Source of the DNA: a virus
Reading direction: 5' to 3' (one strand)
Length of the DNA: 23,401 nucleotides
IMG/VR virus record: IMGVR_UViG_3300044301_001225
Location: 1 to 23,401 of that record
Under the pieces are notes generated by a model that was given only the letters and a program-made list of their open reading frames with translations, did no database searches and was not told the DNA's origin. Of the stretch, positions 15,381 to 23,401 are shown piece by piece. The translations under genes and the position numbers were made by a program. The stretch's first letter is position 1. Each line of letters begins with the position of its first letter.

Positions 15381-17323
15381 TGCCAGCTACCGTTGTCGAT
15401 ACCAATGAGATATCCTTAAATGGGGTCTATTACCCTATTACCCGGCCTATTCGCAGTACGCTTGCTTCTATCTATCCTGCCAAGGTCGTTATAGGTGATA
15501 CCACCAAGGACTCACAGCTCAGAACATCTATCATAGCGTGGTCTGACTGGCGAGGTGGCATTGGTATCAACCGCATGGAAGGGGCTGGTGAGGTTAACCG
15601 GGCATGGTACAGCACCTGTCAGTTGCGTTATAAGAACCATCTGGTGCTTCCTGCACTGGCAACGGAAAGCGCAACGCCGTCACACAGCCTTACTGATGCT
15701 AAGATAGGCGCTATTAATACCCTGTCTGATGAGATCTATGCTTTCTGGAACGGCTCAGTATCAGAGTCACCCAAGCTATTTAAGTACAATAATACTGGCA
15801 ATAGCTGGGGATCTGCCCTAACGCAGAGTGCAACAGACCGGGTAACTGACAGCGTGGTGTTCACCGATGCCGGGGGTACAACGTACCTTGTCTTTGCCCA
15901 CTACGATGTTAATGGAAGCGGGTACACATACTCCTCAGATGGGTCAAGCTGGACTACAGACGCAACAGACACACAGTACATGACTGTATGGGATGAGCGG
16001 CTATGGGGGATATCCTACGCCGGGCAATTATGGTACGCCACTACTATAGGAACAGAGGTCAATGATGCTGTGCTGCCTCTGCCGGATGGCTCTGTAACAG
16101 CCCTGTTTGTGGCTCGTAATGCACTAGGAGTGCCGATAATCTATGCAGCTACAACAAGGGGCTTGTTTGCCCACAATGCAGACAATGCCATGTGGGAAGA
16201 CACACAGATGGACTTTCCTTTTCACCCGGAGAATGGCAAGGGAACTATACGATGGCGGGATTCAGTATATGTGCCATCCGGTAACGGTATCTATAAGTAC
16301 ATTAACGGAAATAATGCTGCTGTAATATCGGTGATGGGTCCCGACAGGGATGACGGCCTGCCTGCAGACAAGCGTGGTTCTATCAGGCATATGGCAGGAT
16401 CTCACAATGAGCTGTTGGTTGGCGTTGATGCCAGTACGTCCCCGGGTACTATTTCATCACAGTCGGTACCATATCAGTGGGAGAGCAATCAGGGAGCACC
16501 TGTCATTGCGGCTGATAGTGGATACAGTGCGATACTGGGATACAACGATATGGGGTGGGAAGTTAAGTGGCAGTCCGAGACAGCAGGTAAGGGCTTTGAT
16601 TCTATCCATGTATCTGATGCGTATGATAAGCACCGTGTCTGGTGGGGGCACAACGATATCGTGCACTTCATGGATTTACCCTCTGATATTATTAACCCGT
16701 CAGAGGTATCGGAGTTTTCTTATGCCCTAGAAGGCATACACGAGACACCGTGGTTCAACGCAGGGCAGTCAGAGATTGACAAGCTGGCATTAAAGCTACG
16801 CATCGAGGCACAGGATCTCAGCTCCACAGAGAAGGTCAAGGTAGAGTATGCTACTGATTATGCTGAGTCGTATACTACGGCTGTAGGAACGCTCGACTCC
16901 ACGGAAATGGGAGCTGCGTCTGGGACATATACCTACACATTTGGCTCCAGTGCAGGAACGGCCTTCAGGGCTATCAAGTTCAAGCTTACCCTGAACCGCT
17001 CTACTGCTACTACGACCGGGCTGGAGAAGTTCAAGACTCCTGACGTGGTAAGCCTGACGCTTGAGTGGAGAAAGAAGATTGAGGCTAAATGGGGGCATAC
17101 GGTCGAGGTGGATCTTAACAACAGATACAAGGGTAACGAGCCAAAGGACTTACGGGCTGCTTTAATATCAGCCGTTGAGAGTACAACTCTCGTAGAGTTT
17201 ACCTTTAGGGATGACAGTGGTGGTACAAGGAACTACTATGTGGATGTAGCGGCAGCGGTGGGCATGGAATACACAGGTTATGATGAAAGGGGTTCAACCC
17301 AGATTACTGTGGTTGAGCCATAG
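15380..17323 (+). CDS. Beta-propeller-like tail (nozzle/tubular) protein (647 aa)
   Basis: Residues about 90-380 show repeated beta-strand blocks with motifs typical of propeller blades: TYLVFAHYDVNGSGYTYSSDG, YMTVWDERLWGISYAGQLWYAT, IYAATTRGLFAHNAD, SVYVPSGNGIYKYI and NELLVGVDAS. A further beta-rich C-terminal domain (about 440-647) contains EKVKVEYATDYAESYTT, GTAFRAIKFKLTL and YVDVAAAVGMEYTGY. Short-tailed phages carry a nozzle protein of this size and build (T7 gp12-like) directly after the adaptor, which matches the gene order here. The start overlaps the adaptor stop (TAATG). Alternatively it may be a tail hub or receptor-binding base protein. No lysozyme or peptidase motif is visible. 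Confidence 0.55.
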   Translation: MPATVVDTNEISLNGVYYPITRPIRSTLASIYPAKVVIGDTTKDSQLRTSIIAWSDWRGGIGINRMEGAGEVNRAWYSTCQLRYKNHLVLPALATESATPSHSLTDAKIGAINTLSDEIYAFWNGSVSESPKLFKYNNTGNSWGSALTQSATDRVTDSVVFTDAGGTTYLVFAHYDVNGSGYTYSSDGSSWTTDATDTQYMTVWDERLWGISYAGQLWYATTIGTEVNDAVLPLPDGSVTALFVARNALGVPIIYAATTRGLFAHNADNAMWEDTQMDFPFHPENGKGTIRWRDSVYVPSGNGIYKYINGNNAAVISVMGPDRDDGLPADKRGSIRHMAGSHNELLVGVDASTSPGTISSQSVPYQWESNQGAPVIAADSGYSAILGYNDMGWEVKWQSETAGKGFDSIHVSDAYDKHRVWWGHNDIVHFMDLPSDIINPSEVSEFSYALEGIHETPWFNAGQSEIDKLALKLRIEAQDLSSTEKVKVEYATDYAESYTTAVGTLDSTEMGAASGTYTYTFGSSAGTAFRAIKFKLTLNRSTATTTGLEKFKTPDVVSLTLEWRKKIEAKWGHTVEVDLNNRYKGNEPKDLRAALISAVESTTLVEFTFRDDSGGTRNYYVDVAAAVGMEYTGYDERGSTQITVVEP

Positions 17324-17626: not shown

Positions 17627-18024
17627 TGACGACACCCACGCCACAAGTACAGGTCCCGCCTAACTGGCCCGGCTCAGTGCCTGAGTACATTGCGTACCAG
17701 ACATTTATACAGCTTGGTAAAGAGCCCGGTGAAGACTTTATCTACCAGTCCCCACTGATGGGTGGACGACTGGACAAGGGTGGCATCGTCCTTGATTTCG
17801 TGTTTTCCAACCCACCGGATTTGGCAGTTAATATACAAGGGGTGTATTATCACTATGAATTTGGTGTTGAAGTGAAGGCTCGTGATCTGATGGCGCGTGC
17901 AATGATGGCAGGTCAGGGAATCTCACTGATCTTTGTTGATGACGACGACCTGATACGGGATGCGGTATACTACTGCCGTGAAGCCCTTAATTATCAGGAT
18001 CACTCCCAGCTAGGAGGTGGGTAA
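17626..18024 (+). CDS. Vsr-like (PD-(D/E)XK fold) protein with degenerate active site (132 aa)
   Basis: The start is set at 17626 by the TAATG overlap with the preceding gene. An in-frame TTG at 17599 is possible but less likely. The pattern matches very-short-patch-repair/DUF559-like nuclease folds: N-terminal helix VPEYIAYQTFIQLG, a G-G-R...G-G turn, strand IVLDFVF with the acid Asp57, then strand LAVNIQGVYYHY, the R-D pair (Arg86-Asp87), a helix, the strand ISLIFVD and a last helix. In active enzymes the second strand carries E-x-D. Here it is Asn69-Ile-Gln71, so catalysis is doubtful. Its place before the fibre gene suggests a packaged or structural role, or a nuclease that has lost or altered activity. 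Confidence in the fold is moderate, and in activity low. Confidence 0.55.
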   Translation: MTTPTPQVQVPPNWPGSVPEYIAYQTFIQLGKEPGEDFIYQSPLMGGRLDKGGIVLDFVFSNPPDLAVNIQGVYYHYEFGVEVKARDLMARAMMAGQGISLIFVDDDDLIRDAVYYCREALNYQDHSQLGGG

Positions 18025-21000
18025 ATGACGATTAACTTTGCAGGACACCTGTATAATGATGCTGGTTCAGCGATCAGCGGAGCCAGCGTTAAGCTTCTTG
18101 AGACAGGGACCACTACACAGGAAGGCTCAACCGTTACCACTGACTCCGCTGGGGCGTGGGCTTTCACCGAGGCCGATCAGGACCGATATGACGTAGAGAT
18201 AACGAGTGGCTCCTCTGTCAGGCGCATCCGTTGGGATGACCAGATCTCCCTGAAAGAAATAGATGTACGCAATAACTCAGCGGCAGGTACACCTGCTGCC
18301 ACGTTCAGCAATATAACAAACAGTACGGCGAACCAAGTGGCCGTATTCAGCGGTGCTAACTCCACCAAGGCAGATAACGACGAGATCTACCTGTCGTTCA
18401 AGTTACATGACTCCGCTGGCAACCTCGATGAGTTTGCCCGGATGACCGTGGTGGCAACAGATGTAACATCTGGCTCTGAAGACGGACAGTTTGAGTTTGA
18501 TGTACTACAGGGCGGCAGCCTTATCAAGGCGTTCACTATTGCTTCCTCTACGGCAGGGGCGCAGTCTATAGACTTCAACCAAGATTCCGTAACATTTGGC
18601 ACAGGCACGGCAGCTACGGATATCACGCTGACCTTTGATGCTGAGAGTGCAGATGGTGTCATCACATGGATGGAAGACGAGGACTACTTCAAGTTCTCTG
18701 ATGAGATATTGATGAACGGTACCGAAAAGATATTGTTCGGGGATACTGCAACTTTCATCCATCAGTCATCTGACGGTGTGATGACCGTTGATGGAGAAGC
18801 AACGATAGACCTTAATGCTTCTACGGCAGTGTTAGTGAGTAATGACCTAAAGCTTAATAGTGACTCTGCTGTTTTAGGCTTTGGAGCAGACAACGATACC
18901 ACCCTAACGCATACAGATGGTACTGGCCTGACGGTGAACTCTACTAACAAGCTCACGTTTGGGGATGTTGCTTCCTTCATACAGCAATCGTCCGATGGCA
19001 CATTAAGAATTGATGGTGAAGCTATCATTGACCTTAATGCCTCTACACGAGTAGATGTGTCAGGGGATATAAAGGTTGGCGGTGAAGTACAGACAGCAGG
19101 GATTGGCTACACTGATGGAGACAATGCTATCACCATCGCCGATGGCGGTGGTATAACAGTTCCCCAAGCAGCTACATTCTCAAGCACCATATCAACAGCG
19201 TCTGGCTCTACCATAGGGAACCTTACACTTGCCAACGGAAGCATTACAGACTCTGGTGGTGCATTAGACTTTGGTAACGAAACCCTTACTACTACAGGTG
19301 CGGTAGACTTTGGTGCTGCTACTGTTGACAGCCTGTCTGTATCAGATGCCAACATCACTAACGTAGGTGACATAGCACTCGACAGCATTAGTGCTGACGG
19401 GACTGATATCAATGTTGCAGTAAGTGATAACTCAGCAACGGCCCTGACAATCAAGCAGGGGTCTGATGCCTACCTCATTGTTGACACAGCGAACAGTAGT
19501 GAATCAGTAAGTATTGGTACAGGTATATCAGGCACGGCAATTACTCTGGGGCATAGCACTTCAGAGACAACCGTGGCAGATAACCTGACCGTTACCGGAA
19601 CTGTAACGGTAGGATCTGATGGCAGCGGTACTGATGTCATCTTCTACTCAGGTACGGCCGGGGATAACTTCACATGGGACGCATCTGCGGAGAAGCTGAC
19701 TATTACGGGTACTGTGGGACAATTGGGGTTAGAGGTTGCAGCCGGTCATGTATTGATAAAAGACGTTCTCTACTTTGAGGACCAAGGTGGTGAATATATC
19801 TCAAGTGACGGCTCGACGTTAACCATTGCTGGGAATATCGTGTTCAGTAGTGCTACTGTTGAGGTTAGCGGCAACTTATCAATGTCAACAGACGATAATA
19901 AAATCTTCTTAGGAGCTGATGATGACAGCGTTATAAGCCATCGGGGTGATGCAGTATCAGCAGACGCAGAGATTTCGAATCTCGTTGTCGGCACGAGCGA
20001 CCACCCCGGTACTGCTGCCAACTCCATGTTTATTTCTAACACTACCACTGACGGCGATATAATGTTCTTGGTATCTGACGGCGGTAATTCCAAGGGGTTA
20101 TTGAAGCTAAATGGTGCTGACGGTACGGTTGAGTTGCACGGTAACCTCTTGCCTACGACTGATGATACCTATGATCTGGGTTCGGCTTCTGCTGCATGGC
20201 AAGACCTGTTCCTAGAGGGTGATATTACCTTCACAGACTCGGCTACTATTAAAACGAATGGGGGAAACCTAAACCTCCATGCGGCAACAGGGCAGGATGT
20301 CATCATCGGTGATACAGATGGCAACTACCTCTTTGTAGATGGTGGCAGTAACCACATTGCTTTCGGCGCTCATGCTTCCAACAATGTGCAATTCGGTATC
20401 AACTTCCCTGCTGAGACATATTCTCCGGGTAGTGCAGGCACGAGCTTCTTCCGCTTCCATGTGAACCAGAACAATGCTGTAACCATTGACACTAACGATG
20501 TATCTCTTGCGGCTTCTGTGTACCTTGAAGAACCTAACCTAACCGTAAGCGGAGTAACACTTGCTACTTCAGCAACGCTGTATATTGCAGGGGCTGCGAG
20601 TGAGGCAACGAATGACTACGCTCTGTTTGTGGATGCAGGGACTGTTAGATTCGATGGATATATGTATTTCTACGACCAAGGCGGTGAATATATCTTCGGA
20701 GATGGTAGTTACCTGTACCTCATAGGTGGGTCGGGAACAATGACAAGAAATCTTATGCCACAAGCCGATGATACATATGATTTAGGGCATTCCAGTTATC
20801 GATGGGATGACATATATGCCACCAATGGTACAATTCAGACTTCTGATAAACGAGACAAGAAAGATATCGTAGCTACGAGTTTAGGGTTAGAGTTTCTTAA
20901 TAAACTAAATCCTGTTTCATATAAATGGGCTACTGACAGTAAAAACACTAGTACACATTATGGTTTAATCGCCCAAGAAGTTCTCGAAACATTAAAAGAG

Positions 21001-21144
21001 TGTGGCATAGAGTCCAGAGATGAGTTTGGGGGTATTACAGGGGATGAAGAGACTAGATATGGCGCACGATACGGAGAATTTATAGCTATTTTAATAAAAG
21101 CTGTACAAGAGTTGTCAGAACAAGTTAAAGGCGGCAGCACTTGA
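18025..21144 (+). CDS. Tail fibre with self-cleaving S74 intramolecular chaperone (1039 aa)
   Basis: Residues 1-75 form a carboxypeptidase-regulatory-like beta-sandwich (INFAGHLYNDAGSAISGASVKL...YDVEITSGSS), a likely attachment domain. The shaft is Ser/Thr/Gly/Asp-rich with repeats: FGDxAxFIxQSSDG blocks at ~230-278 and ~308-356, DQGGEYI at 586-592 and 884-890, and DDTYDLG at ~713 and ~915. The last ~100 residues are a Peptidase_S74 domain: Ser940 in S-D-K-R-D-K-K (S-D-x-R-x-K signature with Lys945), LEFLNKLNPVSYKW, HYGLIAQEV and the closing helix FIAILIKAVQEL. In this family the domain trimerises the fibre, then cuts itself off before the Ser. The mature fibre would be ~939 residues, released from a ~100-residue chaperone. 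The gene begins at TAAATG behind AGGAGGTGGG. Confidence 0.85.
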   Translation: MTINFAGHLYNDAGSAISGASVKLLETGTTTQEGSTVTTDSAGAWAFTEADQDRYDVEITSGSSVRRIRWDDQISLKEIDVRNNSAAGTPAATFSNITNSTANQVAVFSGANSTKADNDEIYLSFKLHDSAGNLDEFARMTVVATDVTSGSEDGQFEFDVLQGGSLIKAFTIASSTAGAQSIDFNQDSVTFGTGTAATDITLTFDAESADGVITWMEDEDYFKFSDEILMNGTEKILFGDTATFIHQSSDGVMTVDGEATIDLNASTAVLVSNDLKLNSDSAVLGFGADNDTTLTHTDGTGLTVNSTNKLTFGDVASFIQQSSDGTLRIDGEAIIDLNASTRVDVSGDIKVGGEVQTAGIGYTDGDNAITIADGGGITVPQAATFSSTISTASGSTIGNLTLANGSITDSGGALDFGNETLTTTGAVDFGAATVDSLSVSDANITNVGDIALDSISADGTDINVAVSDNSATALTIKQGSDAYLIVDTANSSESVSIGTGISGTAITLGHSTSETTVADNLTVTGTVTVGSDGSGTDVIFYSGTAGDNFTWDASAEKLTITGTVGQLGLEVAAGHVLIKDVLYFEDQGGEYISSDGSTLTIAGNIVFSSATVEVSGNLSMSTDDNKIFLGADDDSVISHRGDAVSADAEISNLVVGTSDHPGTAANSMFISNTTTDGDIMFLVSDGGNSKGLLKLNGADGTVELHGNLLPTTDDTYDLGSASAAWQDLFLEGDITFTDSATIKTNGGNLNLHAATGQDVIIGDTDGNYLFVDGGSNHIAFGAHASNNVQFGINFPAETYSPGSAGTSFFRFHVNQNNAVTIDTNDVSLAASVYLEEPNLTVSGVTLATSATLYIAGAASEATNDYALFVDAGTVRFDGYMYFYDQGGEYIFGDGSYLYLIGGSGTMTRNLMPQADDTYDLGHSSYRWDDIYATNGTIQTSDKRDKKDIVATSLGLEFLNKLNPVSYKWATDSKNTSTHYGLIAQEVLETLKECGIESRDEFGGITGDEETRYGARYGEFIAILIKAVQELSEQVKGGST

Positions 21145-22730: not shown

Positions 22731-22955
22731 ATGAATTGGTTACTACGGTTTCTACCAGAAGAGACAAGGCAGATGGTTGTCTTAGGACAGAGGATCATTG
22801 CCGCCTTGGATACACCAGAGGAACGGCGTGTTGCCATCCAGTACGGCATAGAGATGCTTGAGGATGGCCGGGTAGAGGTAGGGGAGTGGGCTAAGTTTGG
22901 ATCTAAGCTTGGCATTCTTCGTGCGCCTGCCAAAAATCCAAGGAAGTCTAGGTAA
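22731..22955 (+). CDS. Small helical phage protein, last gene of the + operon (74 aa)
   Basis: It starts behind a strong AGGAGGAATT. The protein is mostly helical: MNWLLRFLPEETRQMV and a second amphipathic helix with PEERRVAIQYGIEMLEDG, then a basic tail (RAPAKNPRKSR). There is no membrane span or signal peptide. Similar short helical proteins lie near the ends of late operons in environmental phages, but I cannot name a family. It is the final + strand gene. Beyond it lies non-coding sequence with potential RNA structure and then a convergent minus-strand gene. Confidence 0.6.
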   Translation: MNWLLRFLPEETRQMVVLGQRIIAALDTPEERRVAIQYGIEMLEDGRVEVGEWAKFGSKLGILRAPAKNPRKSR

Positions 22956-23165
22956 AGTTGCAACAGGGGGGACCAACCTCATGTTATGACGTATACGGCA
23001 TTGCCCTAGCCTTTACGCCACGGGCTAAACTAGCCGGGCCAGCCTAAACGGTGAGGTTCCGCTTAGTTCGCAGGACGGTGGTGAACCGTCACCCTTGAGC
23101 AATTTTCCCGTGGTCCCCGCTGATGCACGTAGAAAGGAGACGTTGGTAATATAGCATAGATGCTA
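22956..23165 (+). other. Non-coding region with multi-helix fold potential, including a pseudoknot
   Basis: No credible gene lies in these 210 bases. The pairable parts are: (P1) GGGGACCA 22968-22975 with TGGTCCCC 23111-23118, an 8-bp outer helix; (P2) hairpin GGCTA 23023-23027 with TAGCC 23031-23035; (P3) CTAA 23044-23047 and CGG 23049-23051 with CCG 23059-23061 and TTAG 23063-23066, whose 7-base loop TGAGGTT (23052-23058) is exactly complementary to AACCTCA 22975-22981; (P4) GACGGT 23074-23079 with ACCGTC 23085-23090. An 8-bp palindrome CGTATACG sits at 22990-22997. Such a set suggests a structured RNA or a transcription-terminating/processing element. It does not match tRNA, tmRNA, RNase P or a riboswitch I know. 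Confidence 0.45.
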
Positions 23166-23169
23166 TTAC
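23146..23169 (-). terminator. Hairpin at the end of the convergent RusA gene
   Basis: A perfect 7-bp inverted repeat (atagcat/atgctat, 23151-23157 and 23160-23166) with a two-base spacer overlaps the stop codon of the minus-strand gene. GTA/TAC flank it with a two-base bulge. Read as minus-strand RNA it forms a hairpin but lacks a U-run, so it is a weak or factor-assisted terminator at best. It may also stop + strand transcription reading into the other arm. Confidence 0.35.
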
Positions 23170-23401
23170 GCAACAACCTCTTCCATGATTTCAAGTATGG
23201 TTTTAGGTGCCCGTGACCTATCTACTATAAACTGCACAGGAGCATAAGATACTGAGGAACTGTCGTCGTCTGACAGGAACCCTGTCTTCACCAAGGTATC
23301 TATCAGGGGCTTCATACTGGCGAGCCAGTTATCCCCGTCCCTTCTCCTCTGCTGTGCCGTTACAAAGGTTATTGTTATAAGAACCTTACCCTTAACAGGA
23401 T
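23166..23401 (-). CDS. rusA: RusA-type Holliday junction resolvase, C-terminal part (partial at window end)
   Basis: On the minus strand, an ORF open to the right edge (codons from 23399) runs 77 codons to TAA at 23168-23166. It reads KGKVLITITFVTAQQ then RRRDGDNWLASMKPLIDTL, V-K-T-G-F-L-S-D-D-D, and ends in a strand-plus-helix (PVQFIVDRSRAPKTILEIME). This has the RusA signature: D-x-D-N (visible residues 21-24), K-P-x-I-D-x-L and the later D-D pair (44-45). The matching acids in E. coli RusA hold the catalytic metal. RusA dimers cut four-way DNA junctions during recombination and packaging. The beginning of the gene lies outside the window. It is the first minus-strand gene, so an opposing (probably replication) operon converges here with the late operon. 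Confidence 0.85.
   Translation of the reverse strand, partial: PVKGKVLITITFVTAQQRRRDGDNWLASMKPLIDTLVKTGFLSDDDSSSVSYAPVQFIVDRSRAPKTILEIMEEVVA

Follow-up and report, generated by a model that had tools for sequence, protein, structure and literature searches.

A conserved double-pseudoknot RNA element, probably a stand-alone noncoding RNA, in contigs of related phages

What does a phage keep in a spacer at which two genes converge and where no open reading frame accounts for the DNA? The window analyzed here is the whole 23,401-base IMG/VR record IMGVR_UViG_3300044301_001225, a tailed-phage fragment whose major capsid protein (MCP) is ~31 to 34% identical to the MCP of HTVC pelagiphages. The spacer in question is bounded by the end of a late gene at 22955 (plus strand) and the end of a RusA-like gene at 23166 (minus strand), and an initial annotation had drawn in it a folded element.

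22731 to 22955, plus strand: gene for a 74-amino-acid protein, the last of the late block and the convergent neighbor, used as bait for relatives
23166 to 23399, minus strand: RusA-like gene fragment (PHROG 34, E = 6e-9), truncated at the contig end

The RusA-like fragment thus lies upstream of the element in the window, on the strand to which we assign the RNA below. Elsewhere in the window, positions 18025 to 21144 encode a 1039-amino-acid tail fiber or spike protein whose C-terminal part resembles phage tail spikes (PHROG 7121 and 4636), and the 74-amino-acid late gene is apparently duplicated in contig L006 (1415 to 1606 and 2815 to 3036).

The initial annotation correctly placed the 8-bp outer helix, its hairpins, and a 7-base loop that complements a segment next to that helix, although it had missed a helix (P2) stacked on the outer one (P1), a further hairpin (P6), and a second pseudoknot. 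Its reading of the strand, implied by calling the partner of the loop a leader, does not hold. All pairs were said to be Watson-Crick, but on the plus strand an A-C mismatch interrupts the third hairpin; on the minus strand it becomes G-U. Nested folding of the minus strand gives z = -2.42, with 3 of 200 shuffles as stable, compared with z = -0.68 and 48 of 200 for the plus strand, so that only the minus-strand fold is better than shuffles. Over eight homologues, 35 G-U and 6 A-C combinations occur among 343 paired cells, an excess that fits a minus-strand reading and leads us to take the minus strand as the RNA; the supposed leader is therefore its 3' tail. On sequence grounds, both the fold and the strand assignment are well supported. 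The parts of the element in the window are as follows (all on the minus strand).

22968 to 23118: whole RNA element, 151 nt as modeled from P1 to P1'
23148 to 23153: promoter-like -10 box TATATT with an upstream TG (extended -10), 29 nt before P1
23111 to 23118: P1 5' strand, GGGGACCA
22968 to 22975: P1 3' strand (P1'), UGGUCCCC
23107 to 23110: P2 5' strand, CGGG, stacked on P1 (from RNAalifold)
23021 to 23024: P2 3' strand, CCCG (from RNAalifold)
23097 to 23103: pseudoknot A 5' strand, AUUGCUC
23000 to 23006: pseudoknot A 3' strand, GGGCAAU, within the P6 loop
23074 to 23090: P3 hairpin, GACGG/CCGUC, a variable, member-specific domain not conserved in the alignment
23044 to 23066: P4 hairpin, whose loop carries a strand of pseudoknot B
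23052 to 23057: pseudoknot B 5' strand, ACCUCA, within the P4 loop
22976 to 22981: pseudoknot B 3' strand, UGAGGU, adjoining P1'
23033 to 23043: P5, a small hairpin, GCUG-GCC-CGGC
22988 to 23019: P6 hairpin (outer 6 bp and inner 3 bp), whose loop carries the pseudoknot A 3' strand

Relatives were collected from viral contigs with three late-block baits, the 74-amino-acid gene and proteins of 647 and 332 amino acids; RusA as bait recovered none. Homologues of the element at L010 (identical to L011) and L002 were found by reading spacers by eye and L090 by a descriptor scan, and a covariance model (R1) made from the alignment of these three with the window recovered four unseen members, L143 (E = 7e-17), L189 (1.4e-16), L067 (8.5e-16), and L190 (1e-12). 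The whole window element scores 128 bits with R1 and 115 bits with R2, a model built from all eight sequences. R2 searches gave no members beyond those of R1, and a wide gapped pattern scan with covariance search returned only known members among the matches listed. Carriers number 8 of the 137 related contigs searched with R1, which together with the window makes nine IMG/VR contigs, all metagenomic fragments, holding eight distinct sequences that are 46 to 72% identical (L010 and L011, on separate contigs, are one and the same element). Searches of isolated phages by BLASTN, with the spacer and with two other members, gave chance-level matches only, and nothing was found in prokaryote genomes with a protein bait and one exact pattern. 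We regard the RNA as patchy because it was not seen in most relatives, contigs of 35 to 41 kb included, within the limits that fragmentary contigs set to such a statement.

Pairs were counted in an alignment of the eight sequences (A7), and since this alignment was fitted to the structure the counts for the helices lean towards it: 93.3% of pair cells in the whole structure are standard (74.6 ± 1.4 in shuffles), both positions vary in 30 of 44 pairs (13.8 ± 2.3 shuffled; 0 of 500 as high), and the covariation score is 0.612 (0.236 shuffled; 0 of 500). When partners were slid by 1 to 3 columns, pairing reached only 39 to 45%, so that covariation exceeds both the shuffled and the slid controls, as is characteristic of a conserved structured noncoding RNA. 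The outer helix and the loop pseudoknot of the initial annotation are conserved, each in an unchanged register and with compensatory changes; such changes in related phage contigs, the test that it had proposed, are seen in every helix, P2 being almost invariant. In P1, 98.6% of cells are paired and 5 of 9 pairs differ at both positions; the corresponding values are 89% and 7 of 7 for P4, 94% and 2 of 4 for P5, 98% and 5 of 6 for outer P6, and 92% and 2 of 3 for inner P6, while P2 is 100% paired and mostly invariant. Pseudoknot A is 81% paired (4 of 6 changed on both sides) and pseudoknot B 92.5% (4 of 5). The window's counts in A7 are lowered because its row is one column off in P1, P4, and pseudoknot B; read directly, the window element has 51 pairs, all standard. 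Both P2 and P6 were proposed by RNAalifold from the eight sequences without any input from us.

An alignment-free control, which is free of the bias of a fitted alignment, also favors the two pseudoknots. Summed over members, each beats shuffled loops (0 of 2000), with scores of 105 for pseudoknot B (shuffled maximum, 83) and 106 for pseudoknot A (shuffled maximum, 85), and loops pair better with their own partner strands than with those of other members; single members are not always significant alone (for example, P = 0.32 for pseudoknot A of L067). The strands of pseudoknot B pair as ACCUCA/UGAGGU, AGCCCC/GGGGCU, AGUCUC/GAGGCU, AGUCCC/GGGGCU, AGUCCU/AGGGCU, AACCCC/GGGGUU, and GCUGU/GCAGC. 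Two earlier drawings were replaced. Pseudoknot A had been a nested helix in the first structure until RNAalifold revealed P2 and P6, whose presence makes it a pseudoknot, and pseudoknot B of L002, L090, and L010 had been placed on a strand 5' of P4 before giving way to the P4-loop pairing, which has one register in all members.

A perfect TATAAT lies 5 to 10 nt before P1 in five of the eight sequences (L010, L090, L067, L189, and L190). The box has one mismatch in L002 and in the window, where it lies farther from P1 than in the relatives, and two mismatches in L143; TGN precedes it in the window, L090, L067, and L189. On the opposite strand, the best -10 match in a region of the same length never has fewer than two mismatches. 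The position of the TATAAT boxes suggests that the RNA probably starts at P1, and by this motif argument most members would have a predicted start site at P1 or next to it; a generic two-hexamer scan made no call at the boxes, for want of good -35 hexamers. No long open reading frame was found on the RNA strand, where the longest start-to-stop frames have 9 to 34 codons and vary freely in length, and with no coding signal the element is, judged from its reading frames, not a protein gene.

The position, orientation, and neighbors of the RNA vary from phage to phage. It occupies a convergent junction in the window, in L010, and probably in L090, and it lies near the end of the block that opposes the late genes in these three and in L067, L189, and L190; in L002 it is on the late strand, and in L143 it is within an operon, between two codirectional genes. 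The L202/L143 contig has the 332-amino-acid protein and the RNA in common with others, whereas its remaining neighbors differ; no copy of the 647-amino-acid protein was detected there by gene comparison, and the RNA sits among early-type genes. No gene family among the contigs compared is confined to all RNA carriers. The only defense family among the neighbors is an MT-A70 DNA methyltransferase, found in a single member, whose gene (L154, 5755 to 6321, minus strand) immediately precedes the RNA. Two small Cys/His-rich frames with CRCFCH and CECVCH motifs, for which there was no Pfam family, flank the RNA in a pair of related phages (L067, 4841 to 4960 and 5159 to 5425; L192, 15688 to 15879 and 16013 to 16345, minus strand).

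The main rival to a stand-alone RNA is a structured 5' leader acting in cis on the following gene, either riboswitch-like or stabilizing, since frames start ~11 to 35 nt past P1' in four members (L067, L189, L190, and L143), two of them (L190 and L143) with a Shine-Dalgarno-like sequence, and transcription would begin at P1. We nevertheless consider it unlikely as a general explanation, because no convincing gene follows on the RNA strand in the other four members (window, L010, L002, and L090) and the frames that do follow are mostly unrelated, a common family being present only in the close pair L067/L189. These frames encode small proteins with, apart from one weak PHROG match, no known families, and most members do not have the same type of gene downstream, as a riboswitch or leader would. 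A leader role may apply to L143, whose element is within an operon and lacks a good -10 box.

Our results lead us to favor, as the probable explanation, a stand-alone structured phage RNA of a new family that is encoded on the minus strand and acts in trans. The members are homologous, share a fold and a strand, and have promoter-like boxes, no coding signal, and no fixed neighbor gene; that the element is transcribed, as an independent transcript, and acts in trans is what we infer. In this model, host RNA polymerase would start a noncoding RNA of ~150 to 190 nt at the extended -10 promoter, with its 5' end at or near P1. In the folded RNA, P1 would stack on P2, P3 to P6 would form hairpins, and two loops would each pair with a strand elsewhere to make the pseudoknots: the P6 loop with the strand that follows P2 (A) and the P4 loop with the one immediately preceding P1' (B). 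Promoter-like boxes, the absence of a fixed neighbor, and the patchy spread suggest that the most likely action of the folded RNA is in trans, on a host component; during infection it would probably bind a protein or complex of the host. Such a target is a guess, and a tentative one; it fits the finding that no family of genes occurs in all carriers compared and in them alone. A bolder version, that this is a phage effector RNA of a new class which captures or mimics a host component (such as polymerase, ribosome, or a defense protein) through an unprecedented double-pseudoknot fold and moves between phages as an independent cassette, seems to us rather doubtful.

Self-cleavage offers another possible use for a compact double pseudoknot with conserved single-stranded bases, and several ribozyme classes occur in phages. 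A new ribozyme processing the transcript is nonetheless very unlikely, as there was no match to an Rfam ribozyme, the fold is, to our knowledge, unlike the known small ribozymes, and P1 seemingly lies at the start of the transcript, where cleavage would serve little.

The window, L010, and probably L090 have the element at a convergent junction, which could also point to a boundary or terminator element read from either strand, and the initial annotation had offered a processing site or an antisense or terminator element. This has only a slight chance of being correct. A GC-rich hairpin followed by a T run, the mark of an intrinsic terminator, was not found at the element; there was no terminator call or T run at or after it in the window and none at the L090 element, and the only call within the L010 element does not rise above the shuffled background. 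Downstream of the element, L010 and L002 have separate palindromes adjoining it, and L090 has a T-rich run. Moreover, the element can occupy either strand with respect to the late operon and in L143 even lies within an operon, and its own -10 boxes together with the G-U asymmetry favor one strand.

The pRNA of phage phi29 is phage encoded, has its own promoter, and is conserved in structure more than in sequence. The element is likewise phage encoded, similar in length, preceded by a promoter-like box, and conserved in fold over sequence, but a comparable packaging or virion role is highly improbable. It is patchy and was not found in most related contigs, long ones included; it has no match in Rfam, the phi29 pRNA family model included; its two pseudoknots fit intramolecular loop-to-strand pairing, in contrast to the intermolecular loop-loop pairing of pRNA; and the MCP resembles that of pelagiphages, where a large terminase subunit is annotated. 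A chance fold of a GC-rich spacer, for which the plus strand folding no better than shuffles might have spoken, is refuted by the covariation and the blind recovery of homologues.

The stand-alone RNA that we favor does not correspond to a family in Rfam 15, which gave no match to the window element at gathering level and, in permissive searches with seven member loci (E of 5 and 10), no match covering the element. The suggestion in the initial annotation of an undescribed phage RNA has therefore been borne out by a conserved fold, an own promoter-like box, and the lack of an Rfam family. Class I tetrahydrofolate riboswitches resemble pseudoknot B in that the loop of a hairpin pairs with a strand immediately inside P1; unlike these metabolite-sensing leaders of ~100 nt, the element has a second pseudoknot, no downstream gene in the window, and no Rfam match. 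Like the ornate GOLLD and ROOL RNAs of phages and prophages, it is a structured, pseudoknotted phage RNA; GOLLD is often >800 nt long and, like ROOL, is frequently found near tRNA islands (PMC12286853), whereas the element has 150 to 190 nt and no Rfam match, and no tRNA was found in the window. The manA, wcaG, glnA, and abiF RNAs of cyanophages are also structured RNAs in phages of aquatic bacteria, the first three described as cis-regulatory and the last accompanying abiF genes (PMC12197685), in contrast to the element, which has neither a fixed neighbor gene nor an Rfam match. The literature searched describes these six RNAs, none of which matched, and a description elsewhere is possible.

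With no Rfam relative and an architecture that we do not recognize, the RNA class itself is, as judged from these comparisons, new. It is this class that is the novelty, since phage structured RNAs without an assigned function are already known as a broad kind. The family has its own fold with strong covariation from few sequences, in a phage group found here only in metagenomes, and it suggests that the few known classes do not exhaust the small stand-alone structured RNAs of phages. Both the model and the fold are directly testable in transcriptome data.

A match to the mir-6644 microRNA model in L011 and L142 falls on the neighboring palindrome and overlaps the edge of the element by ~12 bases. 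Related phages have recurrent long near-palindromes at convergent junctions, for example TACTTTACTAACTACCCCCC..GGGGGGTAGTAAAGTA, which look like bidirectional terminators (L010, ~17838 to 17876; L032, ~16560 to 16610; L030, ~19240 to 19300).
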